A DNA stretch of 20,785 bases from positions 1 through 20,785 of IMG/VR virus record IMGVR_UViG_3300044695_003912, one strand, 5' to 3'. A program made the position numbers and the translations under genes. Positions 3,526-19,396 of this stretch are shown here, one piece after another. The stretch is from a virus. The stretch's first letter is position 1. The number at the start of each line of letters is the position of its first letter. A model generated the notes under the pieces. That model made no database searches and had not been told where the DNA came from. It saw only the letters and a list, made by a program, of their open reading frames with translations.

Positions 3526-3843
3526 TCATGGGCTTAGTCTGGCTATAGCTAATAGGTTATGTAGATCTGCACGAAGAATAATGTACATATCTTTTAGAGC
3601 GGTATTTATCTCATGCTCAATCAATACATCCAATCTATTTTCTACACCTACCAAAAACGGAGCACACCTTTTCTGTTTTAGCTTATTTTTCATACGTACA
3701 CCAGTTGTAAGTGTGGATAGAAAATATCCATTTTTGAGTGAGGCTGTGATTACTGTGTCACAGATTTCATTATCTGGATTGTTAGGTAGAGGGAAGTTTG
3801 TTAGAATACACTGTAGGATGTTCTTAGCGGAAGGTGTTGTCAT
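3526..3843 (-). CDS. Hypothetical protein, first gene of the leftward operon
   Basis: A 105-residue protein starting MTTPSAKNILQCILTNF. It has the best ribosome site of the operon, AGGAG eight bases before the ATG, and a promoter-like element immediately upstream (3863-3889). It is followed by a 29-base gap and then the small membrane protein. The C-terminal half is predicted helical (RLDVLIEHEINTALKDMYII). A frame on the opposite strand (3509-3910) is judged a shadow because it has no ribosome site. Promoter-proximal position suggests early, strong expression. Function unknown. Confidence 0.72.
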   Translation of the reverse strand: MTTPSAKNILQCILTNFPLPNNPDNEICDTVITASLKNGYFLSTLTTGVRMKNKLKQKRCAPFLVGVENRLDVLIEHEINTALKDMYIILRADLHNLLAIARLSP

Positions 3844-3862: not shown

Positions 3863-3889
3863 ATTATACTACTGATTATTGGTCGTCAA
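3863..3889 (-). promoter_or_regulatory. Promoter-like element of leftward early operon
   Basis: On the minus strand, TTGACG (3889-3884) and TATAAT (3868-3863) are separated by 15 bases. The -10 hexamer is perfect and the -35 matches five of six of the sigma-70 consensus. The spacer is two bases shorter than the usual 17. Predicted transcription would begin near 3856, leaving a short leader with AGGAG before the first gene. Assignment is by sequence only. Confidence 0.65.
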
Positions 3890-3926
3890 TATAAAATTTT
3901 ATCTGACTGAAGTAAATTACAAATTA

Positions 3927-4077
3927 TTTCGCTTTAACGTCTTTATACCTTCAAATACCGCAAAACTAGATATTTATGTGTGTCTAGGATACCATGTGTC
4001 TTTTCTAGTACGTTTGTTGGGTCGTATTGTACTAGGAGTGTGATTTATTGCCCGAATTTTTAAATTAATTCAAGAAT
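3927..4077. repeat. Tandem direct repeat, copy 1 (about 151 bp)
   Basis: It begins TTTCGCTTTAAC and ends TTAATTCAAGAAT, matching copy 2 (4084-4224) along its whole length apart from scattered substitutions and one 10-base insertion near 3949. Internal dyads: CTAGA...TCTAG around a TATGTGTG-containing loop, then CTAGTAC (4004-4011 region)...GTACTAG (4029-4035 region), then an AT-rich palindromic block GAATTTTTAAATTAATTC. No coding frame is supported. It could be a replication-origin iteron, a regulatory site or a structured RNA. Confidence 0.85.
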
Positions 4078-4083
4078 TGATTC

Positions 4084-4224
4084 TTTCGCTTTAACATCTT
4101 TATACCGCAAAACTAGATTTTTATGTGTGTCTAGTATGCTTTGTGTCTTTTCTAGTATGATTAAGGGTCTACAATGTACTAGCAATGAGATTTATTGCCC
4201 GAATTTTTAAATTAATTCAAGAAT
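4084..4224. repeat. Tandem direct repeat, copy 2 (about 141 bp)
   Basis: Second copy of the unit at 3927-4077, six bases after it. It keeps both internal dyads. In the second dyad, CTAGTAT replaces CTAGTAC opposite an unchanged GTACTAG, which would still pair as a U-G wobble in RNA. The end block (TTTATTGCCCGAATTTTT, then AAATTAATTCAAGAAT) is identical between copies, so this part is under the strongest constraint or was duplicated most recently. Confidence 0.85.
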
Positions 4225-4239
4225 AAATAAATCGTCGAT

Positions 4240-4291
4240 AAGCCCCTAATAGTGTGACTTTTTGAGCTTTTTGAACTAGGAATAGGGGTTT
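4240..4291. other. Inverted repeat AAGCCCCTA / TAGGGGTTT
   Basis: Arms at 4240-4248 and 4283-4291 pair over nine positions with one G-T wobble around a 34-base T-rich loop. No clear run of T follows on either strand, so it is not a convincing terminator. The surrounding non-coding stretch (4225-4400) also holds a direct repeat of GGTTGCAT at 4311-4326. No gene is supported here. Confidence 0.4.
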
Positions 4292-4397
4292 AGAGGGGTA
4301 ATTGTAACAGGGTTGCATGGTTGCATGGTTCCTGTTTTGCTATTTGTCGTTCTGATTGGGTAAGGTAACTAAATTATATTGAGAAATCGCTATACCC

Positions 4398-4470
4398 CCC
4401 TCTCTACATACCCATATATACAAAAAAATATGTAAAATAATTTTGCTTATATACTATATATGAGAGAGAT
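4398..4470. other. AT-rich block flanked by CCCTCTCT and GAGAGAG
   Basis: A run of about 60 bases made almost entirely of A and T (CATATATA at 4413-4420, A-runs, TATATATG at 4455-4462) is bordered by a pyrimidine tract ending near 4405 and GAGAGA at 4462-4467. CATATATA and TATATATG form an 8-bp inverted repeat. Such a block next to tandem repeats is the usual look of a DNA-unwinding element, but no replication protein gene or known iteron confirms an origin. Confidence 0.35.
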
Positions 4471-4570
4471 TCGACAGACTATACAACTTCTATATTCAAT
4501 TTAATAAGCCTTCTGGACGAAAACCGCCACTATCAAAACAGCCTTCCATTCCATACCCCATGCTACAATG

Positions 4571-4681
4571 ACACCATGAACCATGTAACAAAGCCTAATC
4601 AATTCCTTCCACTACGGCACATGGCCCTAAAAGTGTTAGAAGGGAAAGGTTGAGGCTACAATGTTACATGGTTCATGGTGT
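4571..4681. repeat. Perfect 20-bp inverted repeat in non-coding DNA
   Basis: ACACCATGAACCATGTAACA (4571-4590) is the exact reverse complement of 4662-4681, with 71 bases between. Both arms are preceded by GCTACAATG-type words (4562 and 4655), so direct and inverted repetition overlap. A related CCATGAACC follows at 4693. The loop holds no supported gene. It could be a large hairpin, a pair of protein-binding sites that loop DNA, or the ends of a small non-autonomous element; no target duplication was recognised. Confidence 0.75.
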
Positions 4682-4817
4682 AAAAGTACATTCCATGAAC
4701 CACGATTATACCAATTAAGGACACAAAGGTCCTGATTTACCAGCCAGACCATTCCCATGGTCTCATCGGCCCGTGGCGGCCATTTTTCTCCCGATCCACG
4801 GACCTTGATACCGGGGT

Positions 4818-4842
4818 GGACTCCCAATGCATCGGGGAGTCC
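4818..4842. other. Hairpin GGACTCCC / GGGAGTCC
   Basis: An 8-bp perfect stem (4818-4825 with 4835-4842) around a nine-base loop, in a locally GC-rich stretch just past the stop of the leftward gene that ends at 4867. No T-run follows on the minus strand, so it is at best a weak or factor-dependent terminator or an RNA-stabilising 3' hairpin. Confidence 0.4.
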
Positions 4843-4866
4843 TTGAGGCTGAATCTGCCTTGTTTT

Positions 4867-5073
4867 CTAGGTCATCTTCGCACGGAAGAATGAGACAACG
4901 CAGATAGAATCATCAACCAATTCAACAATCCAATCATCTGTGAGACTATTAACAAACTGATTATAAGAAACCATGAACATATAACCTTTTACAACAATCA
5001 TGAAACTAGGATCAGACTGTACCGCTACAAGGTTGTCCAATTCTGATTTAGTCTTGATGAGAGTAGTACCCAT
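4867..5073 (-). CDS. Hypothetical protein, 68 residues, with structured leader
   Basis: It starts MGTTLIKTKSELDNLV. GGAG lies about seven bases before the ATG, a strong ribosome site, which is the main reason to accept this isolated gene. The protein is mostly beta-strand-like with alternating hydrophobic residues (FMIVVKGYMFMVS, then WIVELVDDSICVVSFF). Size and acidic/hydrophobic pattern recall small phage inhibitors or immunity proteins, but nothing specific is recognised. It stands alone in a hairpin-rich region, and its upstream 150 bases can fold into several stems, so post-transcriptional control is plausible. Confidence 0.65.
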   Translation of the reverse strand: MGTTLIKTKSELDNLVAVQSDPSFMIVVKGYMFMVSYNQFVNSLTDDWIVELVDDSICVVSFFRAKMT

Positions 5074-5095
5074 GATTTTCTCCAGAAACGATGTT

Positions 5096-5212
5096 ACCCT
5101 GGACCGGACTGGCCCAGGGTGATTAGGTCACAGGATGATCCTGTGGTAAAACAACGTGTCACACTGTTAAGGCATAACAATGTGACATGGCACGTTGAAC
5201 CATGTCACATTG
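5096..5212 (-). promoter_or_regulatory. Hairpin cluster, possible structured leader of the 68-residue gene
   Basis: Three structures lie upstream of the gene starting at 5073. ACCCTGG/CCAGGGT pairs at 5096-5102 with 5114-5120. CACAGGAT/ATCCTGTG pairs at 5129-5136 with 5138-5145 around one central base, so it fits a protein-binding palindrome better than an RNA hairpin. A third segment folds in two mutually exclusive ways: 5157-5169 with 5175-5187, or a perfect 13-bp stem of 5178-5190 with 5200-5212. The strand is assigned only from the position before a leftward gene. Confidence 0.5.
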
Positions 5213-5230
5213 AACCTACGGACTTATGCA

Positions 5231-5712
5231 CTAGTTCCCACAGTGTGAGAAGGAACTAGGATGACCGTAACGTGTACAATAAGAGCTGGAAACCATGCAT
5301 CAGGATAAGATGCAACAATGGATTACCGATTCCACGGTAAAGCCTTCCGCTTCCTTAATGTAGCGTTGCTGTCTCTGATTATATTTTGTCAGAACGTTCT
5401 AGATGGATTCAAAGCAATTCCGATTCATGGACTACGATTAGGGACCTTCCCATAATCCACGAATGATGAAATTGTCGCTCAGAGTAGCGAACCCGACTAG
5501 TTACACCGTAACACTTGATACCTGCTTTGACACAAGGACCGAATCAGGATCCAAGGACAGGGTTCACCATGCTACGATGATTCATACAACGACAAAAACC
5601 ATGCAACCGATTGGCTGCATGGTTCATTTAGACTTCTCACCCCGTCACATGCTACATGGTAGCACGCTTGTGGTGAGGGATTATTCCTAGGGCTTTGATG
5701 GACGCTGCCCTA
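5231..5712. other. Hairpin-rich non-coding region
   Basis: No gene is supported here. Perfect short stems seen: 5231-5238/5252-5259 (CTAGTTCC), 5296-5301/5309-5314 (TGCATC), 5436-5444/5448-5457 (GATTA-GGGA with one bulge), 5597-5605/5616-5624 (AACCATGCA), 5650-5655/5659-5664 (TGCTAC) inside 5636-5641/5672-5677 (CTCACC), and 5688-5693/5707-5712 (TAGGGC). A 10-bp palindrome AGAACGTTCT lies at 5391-5400 next to a minus-strand TATAAT at 5383-5378 that lacks a good -35. A 75-codon frame at 5463-5690 has no ribosome site. Confidence 0.6.
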
Positions 5713-5721
5713 AGATATATC

Positions 5722-5754
5722 CCCCTGCCCTTTATGCCGGGCAGGGGCTTTATT
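5722..5754. terminator. Strong GC hairpin terminator, possibly bidirectional
   Basis: CCCCTGCCC (5722-5730) pairs perfectly with GGGCAGGGG (5739-5747) around an eight-base loop, followed on the plus strand by CTTTATT. On the minus strand the hairpin follows the stop of the leftward gene ending at 5768 by about 20 bases and is followed by GATATATCTT, a poorer U-tract. It probably ends that gene and may also end a rightward transcript from the hairpin-rich region, where no protein gene was found. Confidence 0.7.
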
Positions 5755-5767
5755 GATTGTGTGACCG

Positions 5768-6139
5768 TTAGCGACTAAACTTGTTGGCCAGCTTACGGGC
5801 AGCGAAGGCAAGCTGGTGGCGCTCCAATTTGGTCACAGTGTCGAGCCTCATAGCCTGAGCCTGAGCCTTGAGCGCAGCGCGGGCAGCATCACGGCGCTCA
5901 CCAATCGTGTCGTCACGGACCGCGAGCTCTGTATCATAGGTCTCAGTGTCCCCAGAACGATGGGCACGGGCCGCAGCAGTCACGGCCGCGACGCCATACG
6001 TTGCGATTTCGACCGTAGAAGCATCGACTCCGACAAGCCTAACACTGCGCTTGATCGTGTCGCCAAGGCCCGACTTGAACGAGACGGACAGGTTGATGGA
6101 GGTGATAGGAGCAAGGGCAGGCTGGGAAGAGGCAGACAT
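5768..6139 (-). CDS. Hypothetical GC-rich gene, 123-residue basic helical protein
   Basis: It starts MSASSQPALAPITSINLSVS with AAAGGA about eight bases before the ATG. The first half looks beta-rich (LSVSFKSGLGDTIKRSVRLVG, residues 16-36), the second half is a long Ala/Arg helix (about 53-123) with a basic end (ARKLANKFSR). Codons end mostly in G or C, unlike every neighbouring gene, which favour ATA, CTA, AGA and GTA. Frames also stay open on the opposite strand, as expected in GC-rich DNA, but lack ribosome sites. It stands alone between a terminator and an operator-like region, the layout of a transferred moron. Function unknown; a DNA-binding role is possible from charge only. Confidence 0.65.
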   Translation of the reverse strand: MSASSQPALAPITSINLSVSFKSGLGDTIKRSVRLVGVDASTVEIATYGVAAVTAAARAHRSGDTETYDTELAVRDDTIGERRDAARAALKAQAQAMRLDTVTKLERHQLAFAARKLANKFSR

Positions 6140-6286
6140 GGCAGGTTCCTTTCGTGGTACCTAGGTTATGGCTGCATTAGATCACCAGGGAACCACGCTA
6201 CCATGACAACATGCGACATAACCTGTATACACTGGACGCATGAGCTAGCAACGATCGTGCCAATGTGTAACAGTGTTACACGGCAC
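6140..6286 (-). promoter_or_regulatory. Upstream control region of the GC-rich gene
   Basis: On the minus strand TTGCTA and TATACA, 16 bases apart (about 6253-6226), form a weak promoter candidate. The predicted leader contains AGGTTATG/CATAACCT (6163-6170 with 6217-6224) and CGTGGT/ACCACG (6153-6158 with 6192-6197), the latter close to the ribosome site. Upstream is a dyad: GTGTAACA-g-TGTTACAC at 6265-6281, enclosed by GTGCC (6257-6261) and GGCAC (6282-6286), which looks like a repressor operator. Confidence 0.45.
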
Positions 6287-6301
6287 CATGCAACCTAGTA
6301 C

Positions 6302-6315
6302 GTCAAGCCCTTGAC
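6302..6315. promoter_or_regulatory. Dyad GTCAAG-CC-CTTGAC
   Basis: A perfect 14-bp palindrome-like site that also presents a TTGAC word on each strand. No matching -10 hexamer was found at normal spacing on either strand, so an operator or other protein-binding site is more likely than a pair of promoters. The stretch 6316-6436 contains TGTCACA at 6336 but no gene. Confidence 0.4.
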
Positions 6316-6436
6316 ACCGGGGGAGGGTGCGCCTGTGTCACACAGCTAGAGGCAGTATGCGATGTTGAAATAAAATATACACCAAGTTACCATGCACCCA
6401 CTCTACCTCGCGTATAGTCCCATCGTATCCTAGTAA

Positions 6437-6476
6437 CACAAAAACAAAAAGACCACGCAGCAAAGCCACGTGGTCT
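6437..6476 (-). terminator. Rho-independent terminator of the second leftward operon
   Basis: On the minus strand AGACCACG (6476-6469) pairs with CGTGGTCT (6457-6450) around an 11-base loop and is followed by TTTTTGTTTTTGTG (6449-6436). It lies about 25 bases past the last gene of the 8801-6500 group and has all features of an intrinsic terminator. Confidence 0.85.
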
Positions 6477-6499
6477 CCTAAAAATTTTTCACAAAAATT

Positions 6500-6928
6500 T
6501 TACACAGACGCAAGATCCACAAAAGCACTATCACAATGCTCTCTAAACAAATCAACAAGGACAAGACAAATCTCCCACTTCCATCTCATAGCAGCACGTT
6601 TATGCCCTCTAATAAAATCCCTCCACTCCTTAAACGTGCCAGAAACATAAAGAGTATTTCTATCATCGTAGGATACATTCTTAACGTATTTAAGAATACC
6701 ACAGACACTTGCAGTCAACTCAAGGGCTGCGAAAGCATGAAGATCCATCCGTACAGTAGCGGACGCTGAGTGTAGAAACTCATCGTCACCTAAACTAATA
6801 AGGTGACGAATGCGTACATCAAGGTCGTGCTGCTGATTACCCTTTCCGTTATAGATAATAGATTCAAACACGCTGCGAGGATATTTTGTGACGTCCACTA
6901 TGGTTATTGTGTCTGTAGGTGTTAGCAT
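6500..6928 (-). CDS. Hypothetical protein with faint ThyX-like pattern
   Basis: A 142-residue protein, last of the second leftward operon. Residues 50-60 (EFLHSASATVR) and 91-120 (NTLYVSGTFKEWRDFIRG, then KRAAMRWKWEI) recall the order of elements in flavin-dependent thymidylate synthase ThyX: an E-x-x-x-H segment before a strand, then the N-x-x-x-x-x-x-x-x-x-x-F helix and the A-x-W-E-I helix. The ThyX signature RHR-x7-S is absent and the protein is much shorter than ThyX, so an active enzyme is not claimed. It may be a decayed or repurposed relative, or the likeness may be chance. The ATG at 6928 overlaps the upstream stop by one base. Confidence 0.65.
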   Translation of the reverse strand: MLTPTDTITIVDVTKYPRSVFESIIYNGKGNQQHDLDVRIRHLISLGDDEFLHSASATVRMDLHAFAALELTASVCGILKYVKNVSYDDRNTLYVSGTFKEWRDFIRGHKRAAMRWKWEICLVLVDLFREHCDSAFVDLASV

Positions 6929-7188
6929 TACCAGTGTCTCCCCTGTATCTGTTGATCAAGTGGTTCGTACCAGCGGAAGAACTTATCATTCTCGTATTTA
7001 ATAGAAATCTTCTCTGCTGCTTCTTGAACATCACCAGTGAACCATATCTGATGGCGACTGACTGTAGCAACACCATTCACTACTGACTCAGTTCTGTAGA
7101 AGCGCAGAAACTTCTTAACTTTTGAATTAGTTTTATCGTATAGTTTTGTGGTCATAGAGACTCTCTGGTGTAGCAAATGATTTCTCAT
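6928..7188 (-). CDS. Hypothetical protein, 86 residues
   Basis: The ATG at 7188 overlaps the upstream TGA in an ATGA junction, so coupled translation is likely. A second ATG at 7155 (residue 12, MTTKLYDKTNSKVKKF) follows a GAGAG stretch and would give 75 residues. The protein contains an amphipathic helix (GDVQEAAEKISIKYE) and several aromatic residues (RFYRTES, FFRWYEP). No family is recognised. Its stop overlaps the next gene by one base (TAATG-type junction). Confidence 0.68.
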   Translation of the reverse strand: MRNHLLHQRVSMTTKLYDKTNSKVKKFLRFYRTESVVNGVATVSRHQIWFTGDVQEAAEKISIKYENDKFFRWYEPLDQQIQGRHW

Positions 7189-8417
7189 TCACTCTGGTTG
7201 GCTGACATCCGAATTGATCCGTTACGCATATCTAGGCACCACTGTCCGATGCCTCCGAACATATCTTCTACGAAGAACTCTTTCTCCGTGAAGAGGTTTC
7301 TATATTGACGCTCTACAGCTTTAGTGTAGAGAACTTTACCTCTGCCTTTCTCTGAGTTGATAGTATTCTCTAGTTTAGCTCTCCTAGATAAATTGTTAGT
7401 CTCGATAGCCTTAGCATAGTACTTAGAGAATCGGGACTCGATGCGATAGGCACCTATATCCATACCGTACAAGCGTGCAAGTATTCGCTTAAGACTGATA
7501 GTAGAAGTCTCTGTAACAGGGGAGATAATCTCTATACCGTCTGTTACAGACTTATATGACCACTCATATTCTCCATCTAGAATCTTCTGTAACACACAGG
7601 AGTCGAAGCAGATATAAATAGCGCGCTCATCCGACAAAGGATTCTCACAGATCATGTGACGATTCTGTACGAACCATGGACTAATCGGATCATAAAACAC
7701 TATTTCAAGTACACTAACAGCACCGAACGTATAATACTTGGTTTTATTGATGTTGCAAGACATCCATCGCATGTCAGAAGGATCTATTCTATAGTCAAGT
7801 CTATCCTTCCTATGCTGCTTTGCACCTGACTTAGGCAGGCTTAAAGAGTCCATAATGTGTGCAGAAAGAGCCTTTCCGTACGGTCTATCCTCTCTTTGGG
7901 ACCGTAAATATAGCCCATTTCTCATCAAAATAGCGTACTTTGGTATCAAATATTGAAAGAAAACGTTGCATTTTATGGTAATTACCTCATCATTTTGAAT
8001 AATAATAGGTAATTCTACAATATCTTCCTTACTCTTCCATTTTTGACGTGGATGGAAGTTCTTAGCATATATCTCACGCTTCTTAGCAGCAATGGCTCTA
8101 GTAACCTCGTTAGCCTTAGTAAGCATACCTTCTGTTATACTACGTTTCGTGTAGTTAGCAGACGTATAATCCTCATTATCCTCTATACGAAGACTCAAAC
8201 CAACTTTAGTAGATATAAACTTAGAAAAATTGATACCGTCGTTAGAGAAAGGAATACCAGAGCGCACAACCCAGCTTCTTTTCTGGATCTCATCCGTGTG
8301 AGCAACATCAAACATATATACATCAACTCTACCGTCCCTACGAGGATCGGTAGTAGAAATAGTAAGAGTAGAAAAGTCGTCATACTGTTGTACTTTTGAT
8401 GTGGTTACTGATGGCAT
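7185..8417 (-). CDS. Large hypothetical protein, 410 residues
   Basis: The ATG at 8417 (MPSVTTSKVQQYDD) is chosen; the frame is open to a TTG at 8453, but that codon lies inside the -35 of a promoter-like element. It has no Shine-Dalgarno sequence, and the -10 hexamer ends only nine bases before the ATG, suggesting a leaderless or nearly leaderless message. The N-terminal half is beta-rich, the centre has a basic segment (about 115-130, RAIAAKKREIYAKNF), and the C-terminal region is basic and helical (ISLKRILARLYG, then SRRAKLENTINSEKGRGK). Many Tyr, Trp and Cys residues are present, but no CxxC or HNH pattern. Function not recognised. Confidence 0.75.
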   Translation of the reverse strand: MPSVTTSKVQQYDDFSTLTISTTDPRRDGRVDVYMFDVAHTDEIQKRSWVVRSGIPFSNDGINFSKFISTKVGLSLRIEDNEDYTSANYTKRSITEGMLTKANEVTRAIAAKKREIYAKNFHPRQKWKSKEDIVELPIIIQNDEVITIKCNVFFQYLIPKYAILMRNGLYLRSQREDRPYGKALSAHIMDSLSLPKSGAKQHRKDRLDYRIDPSDMRWMSCNINKTKYYTFGAVSVLEIVFYDPISPWFVQNRHMICENPLSDERAIYICFDSCVLQKILDGEYEWSYKSVTDGIEIISPVTETSTISLKRILARLYGMDIGAYRIESRFSKYYAKAIETNNLSRRAKLENTINSEKGRGKVLYTKAVERQYRNLFTEKEFFVEDMFGGIGQWCLDMRNGSIRMSANQSE

Positions 8418-8426
8418 GATGGTTAT

Positions 8427-8453
8427 ATTATACCGGTCAGGAATAGAAGTCAA
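8427..8453 (-). promoter_or_regulatory. Promoter-like element of the 410-residue gene
   Basis: Minus strand TTGACT (8453-8448) and TATAAT (8432-8427) separated by 15 bases, the same geometry as at 3863-3889 and 11354-11380. The start codon lies nine bases after the -10 and no ribosome site is present between them. It lies in the 54-base gap between two leftward genes, so it may be an internal operon promoter. Confidence 0.6.
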
Positions 8454-8471
8454 GTATAATGTTACAGAGGC

Positions 8472-8801
8472 TTACAACTGTACCATTCTACCATGTGCCA
8501 CGCGGTAATCCCACTTGTGCTTACGTAGCCACACAACCTTGTTGTTACCTGTCTCAAGCCAAGCTACATACTTCTGTAAGTAGAACTTAGGGCCAGCACA
8601 GCCTAGCATGGTAGCTGTCTTCATAGTAAGGTCCATTGTATAAAGGACACCTTTACTAGTTTCGTAGCACCAGTTAAATTCTTTTAACTTGTCTTCGTAC
8701 TTAAAGTCGAAAACAGATACCACGTTATTATATACAGTGGACTCCACTCGTATGGTAGAGTACTCATCACATCTACCATATACGTTGATGATCTTCTTCA
8801 T
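8472..8801 (-). CDS. Hypothetical protein, 109 residues
   Basis: First gene left of the divergent promoter region. It starts MKKIINVYGRCDEYSTIRV; the ATG is preceded by AGAAAG and directly by TATAAT, so the ribosome site is weak. It is beta-rich in the first half, with aromatic residues and a C-terminal Trp/Lys stretch (VVWLRKHKWDYRV). No motif or family is recognised. It faces the terminase operon across about 96 bases, a position that phages often use for regulators, but no helix-turn-helix is evident. Confidence 0.7.
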   Translation of the reverse strand: MKKIINVYGRCDEYSTIRVESTVYNNVVSVFDFKYEDKLKEFNWCYETSKGVLYTMDLTMKTATMLGCAGPKFYLQKYVAWLETGNNKVVWLRKHKWDYRVAHGRMVQL

Positions 8802-8823
8802 ATTATACTTTCTAATATAACTA

Positions 8824-8857
8824 TATTATACTTGGGAGGGTCAGTCCTGGTATAATA
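8824..8857. promoter_or_regulatory. Divergent promoter region with symmetric -10 elements
   Basis: TATTATAC (8824-8831) and GTATAATA (8850-8857) are perfect inverted copies, placing a TATAAT on each strand. The rightward one reads TGGTATAAT (8848-8856), an extended -10, with a poor -35 near 8827. Rightward transcription would start near 8863 and include the GAGG ribosome site at 8891-8894. The leftward one (8830-8825) has a poor -35. A second leftward TATAATAT copy occurs just before the 8801 start. Confidence 0.6.
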
Positions 8858-8861
8858 ACAC

Positions 8862-8889
8862 TTGACGAACGTAAAGCAAGTGTTATATT
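8862..8889 (+). promoter_or_regulatory. Second rightward promoter candidate
   Basis: TTGACG (8862-8867) is followed after 16 bases by TATATT (8884-8889), five of six matches in each hexamer. The start codon is only eight bases past the -10, so a transcript from here would be leaderless and skip the ribosome site. It may therefore act weakly or not at all. Confidence 0.4.
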
Positions 8890-8897
8890 TGAGGTGT

Positions 8898-9686
8898 ATG
8901 CTGTCCACTAAACTACTGGCCGATGATTGGATAAATATACTTGGTGACCTTATAACAGGCACGCAAGCATCTAAGATAGAAGCTCTACCAAAGACTCCTC
9001 TATTAAGTGGTATCAAGCTCAAATACGCATTCGGAGAGAATGTAGCTAAGAGGCTTATCCGCAAATGCGGTGTATTACCAGAGATAGATATAGAGGGTAG
9101 CAGACGATGTGTTTATATAAAAGATGGAGTAAGATGTGAAAACTACTCCTCCACCCCATGTTGCGACGAACATTTTGAAGAGGCACAAATGCTAAGTAAT
9201 CACTTTAGATCTAATACATTGCGTAAGCAATATGAAGAACTGATGGGATCGAAACATAAGCTACAGCTAGATAGTGAAGTATCTATGATGAGACTTATGT
9301 TAGGAATACTTGTTAGCAAACTGAATGATAATGCTATCACAATAGAGCATATAGTAGCTGTAACTCAGCTATGCGAAAAGATAACAGGCGTAGTAGACAA
9401 GATGTCTAAGATGAACTCTGTTACACCTGAGACAGTAGACATAATGATGTCGAAAGTAGTAGACATCATAGCTCTATACGTAGAGCCAGATAAACTAGCT
9501 ATCATAGCAGATGCTATAAGTAAAGTAGTACCTACCTATAACGTATGTGACATACAGGTAATGCCTGGAGACACGTATATAGAAGGTGGTCAAGAAATAG
9601 AACCAATAAGCATCCATAAGCGTGCTCTGATAGAGATAGCTGCACAGATGAAAGTAACTGGAGATGAAGCAGATGCAACAATGTAA
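8898..9686 (+). CDS. Putative terminase small subunit with Cys-rich motif
   Basis: A 262-residue protein starting MLSTKLLADDWINIL. The start is chosen because GAGG lies four to five bases upstream; an upstream ATG at 8862 overlaps the promoter candidate. It precedes the large terminase by eight bases, the usual place of the small subunit, which recognises phage DNA and regulates packaging. Residues 71-92 hold C-x8-C-x7-C-C-x2-H, a likely zinc site that is not usual in small terminases. The remainder is helical (about 98-210), as expected for an oligomerising core. Assignment rests on position and helical content, not on a recognised family, so a DNA-binding accessory protein is the alternative. 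Confidence 0.65.
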   Translation: MLSTKLLADDWINILGDLITGTQASKIEALPKTPLLSGIKLKYAFGENVAKRLIRKCGVLPEIDIEGSRRCVYIKDGVRCENYSSTPCCDEHFEEAQMLSNHFRSNTLRKQYEELMGSKHKLQLDSEVSMMRLMLGILVSKLNDNAITIEHIVAVTQLCEKITGVVDKMSKMNSVTPETVDIMMSKVVDIIALYVEPDKLAIIADAISKVVPTYNVCDIQVMPGDTYIEGGQEIEPISIHKRALIEIAAQMKVTGDEADATM

Positions 9687-9694
9687 GGTACTAT

Positions 9695-11347
9695 ATGCAA
9701 CTAGAGTTTGATATTGCTAAGATGCTTGGTGACAAGCTTAAAGCAGCAGCCGCAGCTAAGAATACACTTACCTATCCTACTCTGAAAGAGTGGGGATTAA
9801 AATTCACTCCGCACTATCTGTTTAGAGGAATGTGTCCTCTACATGAAACCTTGAGCGATGTAGGCGATGAACTAAAGAAAGACAGACAGAGTGCAGGAGC
9901 AGGTGGAAAGCGCATACTAGTTATCGCACCTAGAGGTAATGCTAAATCAACTTGGTCTACACTACTCATTCCGCTAAGAGCCATCTGTGAAGGAACTGAG
10001 AAGTACATTATGCTTATCGCTGACACGGCGATTCAAGCAGAAGCGTACCTTAAAAGCATAGCTACAGAGCTAGAAAGTAATGAAGCTCTAAGAGAAGCCT
10101 ATCCACTTGCGTGTGAGCAAGGTGAGACATGGAAGGTATCGCGTATTGAAACCAAGAGCGGCGTATGCATTGAAGCATTGGGTAAGGGTGCTAATCCTAG
10201 AGGTAGAAAGTTCAGACAATACCGTCCATCGCTCATTATCGTAGATGATCCGCAATCTGGTGAAGATATGCTATCACCAACAGGGAGACAGAAAGACATC
10301 GAGTGGTTCGATAAAGACCTATCTTCCGCTGGTGATACAGAGACAAACATATTCGTAGTAGGAACGATGCTACATAGAGAGTGTATCGTAGGAAGCATCG
10401 CTGGTCGTCCATCATACAGAGTTATTAAGTTCGCTGCTATAAGAGAATGGCCCACGCACCTAGATACACATTGGAAAGAGTGGAGTAGACTATTCCACTT
10501 CGACGCAGAAGGTTGCAAAGATTACTACATCAAGCATAAAGACGAAATGCATGAGGGCGCTGTTGTATTGTGGCCAGAGAAAGAAGACCTCCATACACTC
10601 ATGACCATGCGTGAGGAAATAGGGTACCAAGCCTTCGCTTCTGAAAAGCAGAATGATCCTAGAGATCCTAGTAAGTGTGAGTTTCCCGAAGAGTACTTTG
10701 AAGACTGCTACTATAAAGAACCCCCTACTTATAATAAGATTGTTACAGTAGGTTATCTAGATCCAGCCAAGGGAGCAGATACAAAGCGGCACGATTACCC
10801 TGCTATAATTATTCTACACTATCTACCAGAATACAACAAGGTACTAGTCGAATGTGATATGCGAAAACGCCCTATAAACGAGAGAATAGACGATATAAAG
10901 CAGTGGCACTCAGTGGTAAAGTTCTCAGCATTTGGTGTAGAATCCGTAGGTATGCAGTATCTCGTTGGTGAAGAATTACAGGCGAAGGTTCCTAATCTGA
11001 ATGTATTACCTATAGATAACACAGGGCAGAATAAGAACATCCGTATATCTAGACTAGGTTTCTGGTTAAATAGAAAGTTCTTTCTATTTAAACAAGGTTG
11101 CCCTTTCACTAAGATAGTACTGCAACAACTAAAAGATCACCCACACTCTGATCACGACGATGGGCCTGACGGACTAGAAGGTGCATTAAGAGTACTATCT
11201 TCTGTTACAGACTTTGCTAGTGTAGATAGTACAGATATAGGTGATATAGCAGATGACTCTCTAGGGGACAATCTTCTATTTGGAACACGTGATAGGACTC
11301 TTGAGGGTATATCTAATATGTTTGACGCATACCACTATATGCAATAA
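9695..11347 (+). CDS. terL: Terminase large subunit (packaging ATPase and nuclease)
   Basis: A 550-residue protein. The N-terminal ATPase domain has a Walker A-like APRGNAKST at residues 78-86, Walker B LIIVDDPQ at 180-187 with D184-D185, and a coupling motif VVGTMLH at 221-227. The C-terminal RNase H-like nuclease shows GYLDPAKG with D356, a candidate second acidic residue in FGVESVG (E416), and DHDDGPDGLEGALR with D489/D492. It docks on the portal, pumps DNA into the prohead and cuts concatemers. The start follows an AAGG ribosome site that overlaps the stop of the preceding gene. Length and motif order are normal for the family; the gene is intact. Confidence 0.96.
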   Translation: MQLEFDIAKMLGDKLKAAAAAKNTLTYPTLKEWGLKFTPHYLFRGMCPLHETLSDVGDELKKDRQSAGAGGKRILVIAPRGNAKSTWSTLLIPLRAICEGTEKYIMLIADTAIQAEAYLKSIATELESNEALREAYPLACEQGETWKVSRIETKSGVCIEALGKGANPRGRKFRQYRPSLIIVDDPQSGEDMLSPTGRQKDIEWFDKDLSSAGDTETNIFVVGTMLHRECIVGSIAGRPSYRVIKFAAIREWPTHLDTHWKEWSRLFHFDAEGCKDYYIKHKDEMHEGAVVLWPEKEDLHTLMTMREEIGYQAFASEKQNDPRDPSKCEFPEEYFEDCYYKEPPTYNKIVTVGYLDPAKGADTKRHDYPAIIILHYLPEYNKVLVECDMRKRPINERIDDIKQWHSVVKFSAFGVESVGMQYLVGEELQAKVPNLNVLPIDNTGQNKNIRISRLGFWLNRKFFLFKQGCPFTKIVLQQLKDHPHSDHDDGPDGLEGALRVLSSVTDFASVDSTDIGDIADDSLGDNLLFGTRDRTLEGISNMFDAYHYMQ

Positions 11348-11353
11348 GATACA

Positions 11354-11380
11354 TTGACAAACTAGTTGTCGGTGTATAAT
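11354..11380 (+). promoter_or_regulatory. Near-consensus promoter before the lipoprotein gene
   Basis: TTGACA (11354-11359) and TATAAT (11375-11380) both match the sigma-70 consensus exactly, separated by 15 bases. The start codon of the next gene is seven bases after the -10, so transcription would begin at or one to two bases before the ATG. It lies in the 40-base gap after the large terminase and could express the lipoprotein independently of the virion operon. Confidence 0.7.
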
Positions 11381-11387
11381 AAGACCC

Positions 11388-12014
11388 ATGAGACTAGCAG
11401 CACTTCTAGTTGTATGTATGCTATTTTATGGTTGTGGAGCAAGAGTACTTGCACCAGCAAGCGTAGAAAGACTACGCACAGACATCGCTAATGTTAAGCA
11501 AGCCTCAGAAGCAGTAGCATCCTCATATAGTCAAGAAGCTATAAACCGCCTATCTATAGATATGGCTACCACACTAGGTATATCGCTTAGTGACTTAGAT
11601 AGTTATGCTACAGTGAAAGCAGCGGAATGGAACAATGCTCCACACGAAGCATTACCTAAGATAGAAGATAGTATTAAAAATCCTGTGTCTCCATCCGGTG
11701 CATGGTGGGGTTTAGCTGCTGTAGTCGGTACTGGTCTAGCTGTAACAGCACTAAGAGCGCTAGCATCTAGTGGTACTGGTGGACTACCTCAGATAGCAGG
11801 ATTAATAGGATCGCTATTGGGATGGACTCTAGATCCTAAAGAGAAGCTTATACGCGATAAGCTACAAGCAGCAATAAACATTGCTAGCCAAGAACCAGGA
11901 TTTGACAACACTTCTGTCGGTAAAGAGCTGTCTAAAGTTATGACACCAGAAGAAAAACTTTTAATTAAACGTAAGAAAGCTAAGAAGCACTATGAAAACG
12001 CAAGACGCGCTTAG
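11388..12014 (+). CDS. Putative phage lipoprotein with hydrophobic central segment
   Basis: A 208-residue protein starting MRLAALLVVCMLFYGC. The short basic N-terminus, hydrophobic stretch and Gly-Cys at 15-16 resemble a lipoprotein signal peptide with Cys16 as the lipidated residue; Phe at -3 makes the lipobox imperfect. A second hydrophobic region (about residues 104-150, WWGLAAVVGTGLAVTALRAL and then GLPQIAGLIGSLLGW) could be one or two membrane helices. The C-terminus is highly basic. Possible roles are superinfection exclusion, lysis (spanin- or holin-like) or virion entry; none is proven. No good ribosome site is present, and a consensus promoter ends seven bases upstream. It overlaps the portal gene by 23 bases. 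Confidence 0.7.
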   Translation: MRLAALLVVCMLFYGCGARVLAPASVERLRTDIANVKQASEAVASSYSQEAINRLSIDMATTLGISLSDLDSYATVKAAEWNNAPHEALPKIEDSIKNPVSPSGAWWGLAAVVGTGLAVTALRALASSGTGGLPQIAGLIGSLLGWTLDPKEKLIRDKLQAAINIASQEPGFDNTSVGKELSKVMTPEEKLLIKRKKAKKHYENARRA

Positions 12015-19202: not shown

Positions 19203-19396
19203 TAGCTCTTGACGAAACAGTACTAAAGATCAGTAAAGCTAAGCAGGATGAGCTACCGGCTGGCCGAACATTGCGATACCAGATTCTACGAATCTGTGAG
19301 CGGTTCGGCCAGCCGCCTTCTTGGGCTGATACCTTAGACCGTCAAGATATTTGTGAATTAGTAGCCTACAACCAGATTAGAGATAGAGAAGGATAA
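19202..19396 (+). CDS. Tail assembly chaperone T-like extension (-1 frameshift)
   Basis: In the -1 frame relative to the G-like gene, 64 codons (VALDETVLKISKAK at the start, DICELVAYNQIRDREG at the end) run to TAA at 19394. The frame opens at 19190 after a stop at 19187 and has no ATG, GTG or TTG near its beginning (the first TTG is at 19271). The C-terminal pattern RFGQPPSWAD followed by a helix ending in NQIRDRE is typical of T-type extensions. The slip must occur between 19190 and 19202. No canonical X-XXY-YYZ site was found; T-TTA-TAG at 19196-19202 is the best candidate. Confidence 0.75.
   Translation, partial: VALDETVLKISKAKQDELPAGRTLRYQILRICERFGQPPSWADTLDRQDICELVAYNQIRDREG
19257..19315 (+). 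repeat. 13-bp perfect inverted repeat inside the T-like gene
   Basis: CGGCTGGCCGAAC (19257-19269) and GTTCGGCCAGCCG (19303-19315) are exact reverse complements, enclosing a second hairpin AGATTC/GAATCT (19281-19286 with 19290-19295). The stem is GC-rich in an otherwise AT-rich gene. It begins 57 bases after the probable frameshift site, farther than usual stimulators, but could still stall ribosomes or control the tape-measure start downstream. Confidence 0.75.

Follow-up and report, generated by a model that had tools for sequence, protein, structure and literature searches.

Promoters read by the primary sigma factor of bacteria (sigma-70 or sigma-A) combine two hexamers, TTGACA and TATAAT, with a spacer whose textbook length is 17 bp, at which Escherichia coli promoters are reported to peak; transcripts begin about 7 nt past TATAAT, the -10 element. 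The length of the spacer is generally attributed to how far apart two fixed sigma domains lie. MerR-type promoters have long spacers of 19-20 bp together with a regulator gene. In phage lambda, PR and PRM are overlapping divergent (back-to-back) promoters, two outward units that should exclude each other. Consensus sigma-70 hexamers with random spacers of 15-19 bp are strongly active in E. coli (PMC8695583). In leaderless genes, as described in Actinobacteria and Deinococcus-Thermus, a -10 element about 10-12 bp upstream of the start codon is the mark of the class (PMC3160421; PMC12340547); most such genes of D. radiodurans have no -35 element, and an added one helped at 17 bp, not at 22 bp (PMC12340547).

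The promoters examined here resemble those of sigma-70/sigma-A in their hexamers and in their position relative to genes, but their spacers are of 15-16 bp, with 17 and 18 bp at background, and a G precedes TATAAT instead of the TGn of an extended -10. With MerR-type promoters they share an unusual spacing with good hexamers, although their spacers are short and no regulator of this kind turned up. Like PR and PRM, some of them form pairs of outward promoters expected to exclude each other, but the clearest pair, in relative L143, lies on a perfect 13-nt inverted repeat with both -35 boxes inside, a symmetry that is degraded in the window. As in leaderless genes with an ORF-adjacent -10 (PMC3160421; PMC12340547), TATAAT often ends 6-9 bases before the ATG with no Shine-Dalgarno (SD) sequence, but the phage promoters also have a strong -35.

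Promoters of the window

The window, the whole stretch of DNA analysed, is an entire IMG/VR record, a viral contig of 20,785 b. Its genes include those for a large terminase, a portal of the lambda family and a capsid protein, as identified in Pfam and PHROG profile searches. It is a fragment of a phage belonging to a group of little-known bacterial viruses; terminase relatives in a phage annotation collection all showed less than 60% identity.

A first-pass annotation had described three TTGAC[AGT]-N15-TATAAT elements, and all three are present letter for letter, each upstream of a gene (Table 1). Scanning the window at every spacing from 10 to 24 bp revealed no further exact TTGAC/TATAAT pair. 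The annotation had missed a fourth promoter, with one mismatch and a 16-bp spacer, so that both spacings, 15 and 16 bp, already occur inside the window.

Table 1. Promoter elements, symmetrical sequences and adjoining genes in the window
Feature	Position	Strand	Description
105-aa ORF	3526..3843	-	Downstream of site 1; first of the leftward gene cluster
Site 1	3863..3889	-	TTGACG-N15-TATAAT; 19 nt from ATG 3843; short leader with CAGGAG
410-aa gene	7185..8417	-	Driven by site 2 (predicted); N-terminal MP conserved
Site 2	8427..8453	-	TTGACT-N15-TATAAT; putative 410-aa gene promoter; 9 nt between -10 and ATG 8417, without SD
Conserved TATAAT	8825..8830	-	Upstream of the leftward 109-aa gene (8472-8801); no recognisable -35 in the window
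Perfect 10-bp dyad	8855..8886		ATAACACTTG-N12-CAAGTGTTAT; overlaps -35 and -10 of the fourth promoter; within a stretch identical in L004
Fourth promoter	8862..8889	+	TTGACG-N16-TATATT; 8 nt before ATG 8898; identical in L004
First gene of the rightward (structural) cluster	8898..9686	+	Upstream of the large terminase; homologues in the group
Imperfect 12-bp inverted repeat	11349..11377		ATACATTGACAA / TTGTCGGTGTAT; covers site 3 from the -35 through the spacer into the -10
Site 3	11354..11380	+	TTGACA-N15-TATAAT; 7 nt before ATG 11388, without SD
Lipoprotein-like ORF	11388..12014	+	Driven by site 3 (predicted); signal-like N-terminus, then GCG

Dinucleotide-preserving shuffles of the window yielded on average 0.03 such sites and never three. 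Chance matches in an AT-rich stretch, for which nothing speaks except the simplicity of the hexamers, are thus a highly improbable explanation, already refuted for site 2 by its retention in eight contigs; for sites 1 and 3 the case against chance is one of statistics and position. Shuffles and conservation together support the earlier view that the three sites are promoters. Their hexamers are near the sigma-70-type consensus, but the spacer, 15 bp in three of the four promoters and 16 bp in the fourth, is not the 16-18 bp, mostly 17, of that type, which lowers the case for calling them typical promoters, not that for their working as promoters. Re-registration to 17 bp, using TAATAC, TAATAT or TAATAA 2 bp downstream or bases upstream of TTGAC, gave poorer fits, and the TGn of an extended -10 is missing at sites 1, 2 and 3.

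Site 1 lies in a stretch covered by none of the relatives. It is followed by ACTAAACAGGAGCATTAAAATG, a short leader carrying an SD, and is not of the leaderless type. The 105-aa ORF downstream matched no Pfam or PHROG family.

Conservation of site 2 and spacer length in the phage group

Contig L004, a near-duplicate of the window (87% and 81% DNA identity in two main blocks), spans sites 2 and 3, and further members of the group were recognised from capsid and terminase alignments: L095, L012, L140 (51 kb), L143 (52 kb), L144, L145 (52 kb) and L146. The terminases of the relatives are 46-92% identical to that of the window.

The site-2 promoter is present in all eight group contigs that cover the start of the 410-aa gene. 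In their alignment, TTGACT is invariant and TATAAT is found in seven, L145 having TATATT. The spacer is 15 bp in the window, L004 and L144 and 16 bp in L095, L140, L143, L145 and L146, never 17. In L004 the hexamers are unchanged while the spacer carries two changes, and across the alignment the spacers match poorly around (near-)invariant hexamers, a pattern that marks a promoter rather than a single long binding site. The hexamers have been kept even though most of the 410-aa proteins are only about 25% identical to that of the window. An N-terminal 'MP' shared with six homologues indicates that ATG 8417 is the right start codon. The protein itself had no Pfam or PHROG match, and its structural model (mean pLDDT 64, low confidence) no PDB match below E 0.1.

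Across 260 kb of group sequence, scanned at all spacings from 10 to 24 bp and omitting the near-duplicate L004, exact matches numbered five at 15 bp, 11 at 16, one at 17, none at 18 and one at 19, with none at the remaining spacings; shuffling predicted about 0.07 matches per spacer in approximately 97 kb. Allowing up to one mismatch outside genes, we counted 10 sites at 15 bp, 22 at 16, one at 17 and one at 18, a tally that includes L004 and a few sites counted twice at different spacings. A G directly precedes TATAAT in 14 of the 16 exact sites. Short spacers truly characterise the phage group, which leans to 16 bp with 15 bp as the short variant, although these statistics were gathered after the pattern had already been seen. 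The expectation of a spacing below 17 was therefore borne out, and the check that the first-pass annotation had itself proposed, equal numbers of 17-bp spacers elsewhere, came out in its favour when run on the group (17 at background, one exact match versus 16 at 15-16 bp). Conversely, its 'constant 15-bp spacer' does not hold, since the site-2 orthologues have 15 or 16 bp and the fourth promoter has 16, and its statement that 15 bp is a poor spacer for sigma-70 was too strong, because spacers of 15-19 bp support high expression with consensus hexamers in E. coli (PMC8695583). What we have found is more aptly described as a class of promoters, with spacers of 15-16 bp, that belongs to the phage group.

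More distant terminase relatives (1.09 Mb) showed no excess at 15 bp and a weak rise at 16 and 17 bp, and near-consensus matches in a 250-kb calibration segment of E. coli K-12 were too few for any peak. In 149 genomes of Planctomycetota, the one phylum sampled and the only one for which there is a hint that it includes the phage host, totals added by hand from tables, compared with a reversed-pattern control, were 150 versus 133 at 15 bp, 1302 versus 118 at 16 bp and 951 versus 128 at 17 bp. Since 15 bp is at background there and 16 bp is enriched, the 15-bp phage sites are unusual even against a bacterial group that often uses 16. Exact pairs in this phylum are commoner at 16 than at 17 bp, and several genomes have almost only 16. 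In the planctomycete sites listed, the base before TATAAT, read by eye, was mixed and not mainly G.

Start codons and the divergent region

The suggestion that two of the sites give rise to leaderless messages fits what we found at sites 2 and 3, whose -10 elements end 9 and 7 nt before the ATG with no SD in the gap. The same arrangement recurs in site-2 orthologues, at 9 nt in L004, 6 in L095, 6 in L140, 7 in L144 and 9 in L146. With a gap of mostly 6-9 bases between -10 and ATG, transcripts would start at the AUG or within about 3 nt of it and be translated leaderless. Conversely, the orthologues in L143 (20 nt, GGAG) and L145 (18 nt, AGGAG) carry an SD, with a predicted leader of about 12 nt instead. 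Judged from these distances, predicted leaderless starts at sites 2 and 3, recurring in relatives, are well supported, and the starts of the 410-aa gene appear as a natural switch between a predicted leaderless and an SD-led version.

Site 3 has no counterpart in L004, L012 or L095; in these contigs the terminase gene runs up to or into the lipoprotein-like gene. Among the phages compared, the site is thus particular to that of the window; in L004 the lipoprotein-like gene has an SD-like GGAGAAGGG in its place. The inverted repeat at site 3 would form, as RNA, a 12-bp stem (z -3.05). The start region of the site, TATAATAAGACCCATG, is identical to the start region of the 410-aa gene in L144; a promoter cassette may have been transferred, or the match may be a coincidence. 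Elsewhere, TTGACT-N15-TATACT is conserved within the 3' end of the terminase gene in L012 (2176-2202, about 70 nt before the next gene) and L144 (7232-7258), where it may represent coding conservation or an internal promoter. An intergenic copy in L012 (8205-8231) and a similar intergenic site in L144 (15462-15488) are further 15-bp promoter candidates.

At the place orthologous to the fourth promoter, L095, L140, L143, L144 and L146 all have a rightward promoter with a 16-bp spacer. The inverted repeat of L143, ATTATACTTGACA-N9-TGTCAAGTATAAT, carries two interlocked back-to-back promoters, each of 16 bp, and L144 and L146 show TTGAC palindromes at this place. In the window the symmetry of the divergent region is degraded, yet the perfect dyad at 8855..8886, a possible operator, covers the rightward promoter. 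Two polymerases would be unable to sit together on a pair of the L143 type, and leftward and rightward transcription are therefore likely to be mutually exclusive, as far as the arrangement of the sites can tell. A further TATAAT lies against, or almost against, the ATG of the 109-aa gene in the window (8802-8807, minus strand), L004 (4626-4631, minus) and L095 (approximately 1753-1758, minus); it is too close for a -10 element and more probably represents AT-rich sequence separating the SD from the start.

The polymerase reading the promoters

We consider it probable that the sites are sigma-70-type phage promoters, in all likelihood read by the host polymerase, with a group-typical spacer of 15-16 bp and a G before the -10. 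They would constitute a group-wide class, (C)TTGAC(T)-N15/16-TATAAT, usually with G right before TATAAT, that drives the 410-aa gene, the leftward cluster, the rightward terminase and structural cluster and, in the window's phage only, the lipoprotein-like gene. The most likely reader would be the host primary holoenzyme, accepting 15-16 bp when both hexamers are near consensus. Sigma-70 region 2 and region 4 domains were found in none of 10 group records (three of 51-52 kb; the records may be fragments), whereas control genomes were positive, and among the best-matched Pfam and PHROG families listed for 101 further proteins, up to 25 in each list, were those of replication, nucleotide metabolism and structure; the two results together make the host polymerase the default.

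A more specific form of this reading, in which the host primary sigma favours 16 bp and accepts 15, the phage promoters being host-like, is possible but doubtful. It agrees with 16 bp being the most enriched spacing in Planctomycetota (1302 versus 951 at 17) and with a whole-collection genome scan that found capsid relatives only in that phylum (three of three, at 30-33% identity), more being found in the Planctomycetota sample, the sole phylum sampled. However, capsid relatives so distant, with sampling from one phylum, make a weak host link, 15 bp is not enriched in Planctomycetota, and their base before TATAAT, by eye, is not mainly G. The group-wide shift in spacing and the G before the -10 suggest a reader with a preference of its own. 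One tentative proposal is that the promoter class has a geometry of its own, with spacers of 15-16 bp, a C ahead of the -35 and a G ahead of the -10, and that the form of polymerase reading it has a matching preference, conferred by a phage factor or by a host sigma as yet uncharacterised; the phage of the window would have drifted to 15 bp at three of four sites.

That a phage factor, be it a small RNA-polymerase-binding protein, a co-activator or a very divergent sigma, reshapes the host polymerase to favour 15-16 bp spacers with a G ahead of TATAAT seems unlikely, despite the shifted spacing throughout the group with 17 at background, the G in 14 of 16 sites and the lack of enrichment at 15 bp in the Planctomycetota control. 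The phage sigma or sigma-replacing factor was searched for and not found in the 10 records, which hold no sigma-70 domain 2 or 4; no polymerase-modifying family figures among the best-matched families listed for the 101 proteins, and the motif is common to both orientations and to different gene clusters, which does not suggest a switch of reader. The untwisting by a MerR-type activator envisaged earlier has no support either, because it applies to spacers of 19-20 bp with a regulator dyad inside, and here they are of 15-16 bp. Less likely still, the sites would be operators first, dyads for a phage regulator, with spacing dictated by the packing of interlocked divergent promoters or by a repressor palindrome. 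The L143 repeat with its two back-to-back promoters, the palindromes of L144 and L146, the inverted repeat at site 3 and the perfect 10-bp dyad at the fourth promoter are consistent with this, but the promoters of the 410-aa gene have the same spacing with little spacer sequence in common (alignment of eight), no regulator was found, and a palindrome could equally fit 17 bp.

The natural series of near-consensus promoter orthologues at 15 and 16 bp offers a ready-made test of what sets sigma spacing, and the predicted leaderless and SD-led versions of the 410-aa gene offer a test of switching between start types. The short-spacer pattern would also help to trace the machinery, bacterial or viral, that reads these promoters.

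The AT-rich non-coding DNA at 3955-4224 of the window contains two 123-nt direct repeats, 85% identical, and a 27-nt inverted repeat occurs at 4564-4688. The poorly coding, locally GC-richer region at approximately 4500-6480 holds many short hairpins; Rfam returned no match there or in the rest of the window. Blocks of this region also occur in L004, with different small ORFs in between. Finally, the window and record L007 are 99.8% identical up to positions 19395 and 7468, respectively, and about 67% identical beyond, a sharp, recombination-like breakpoint near the start of the tape-measure gene.
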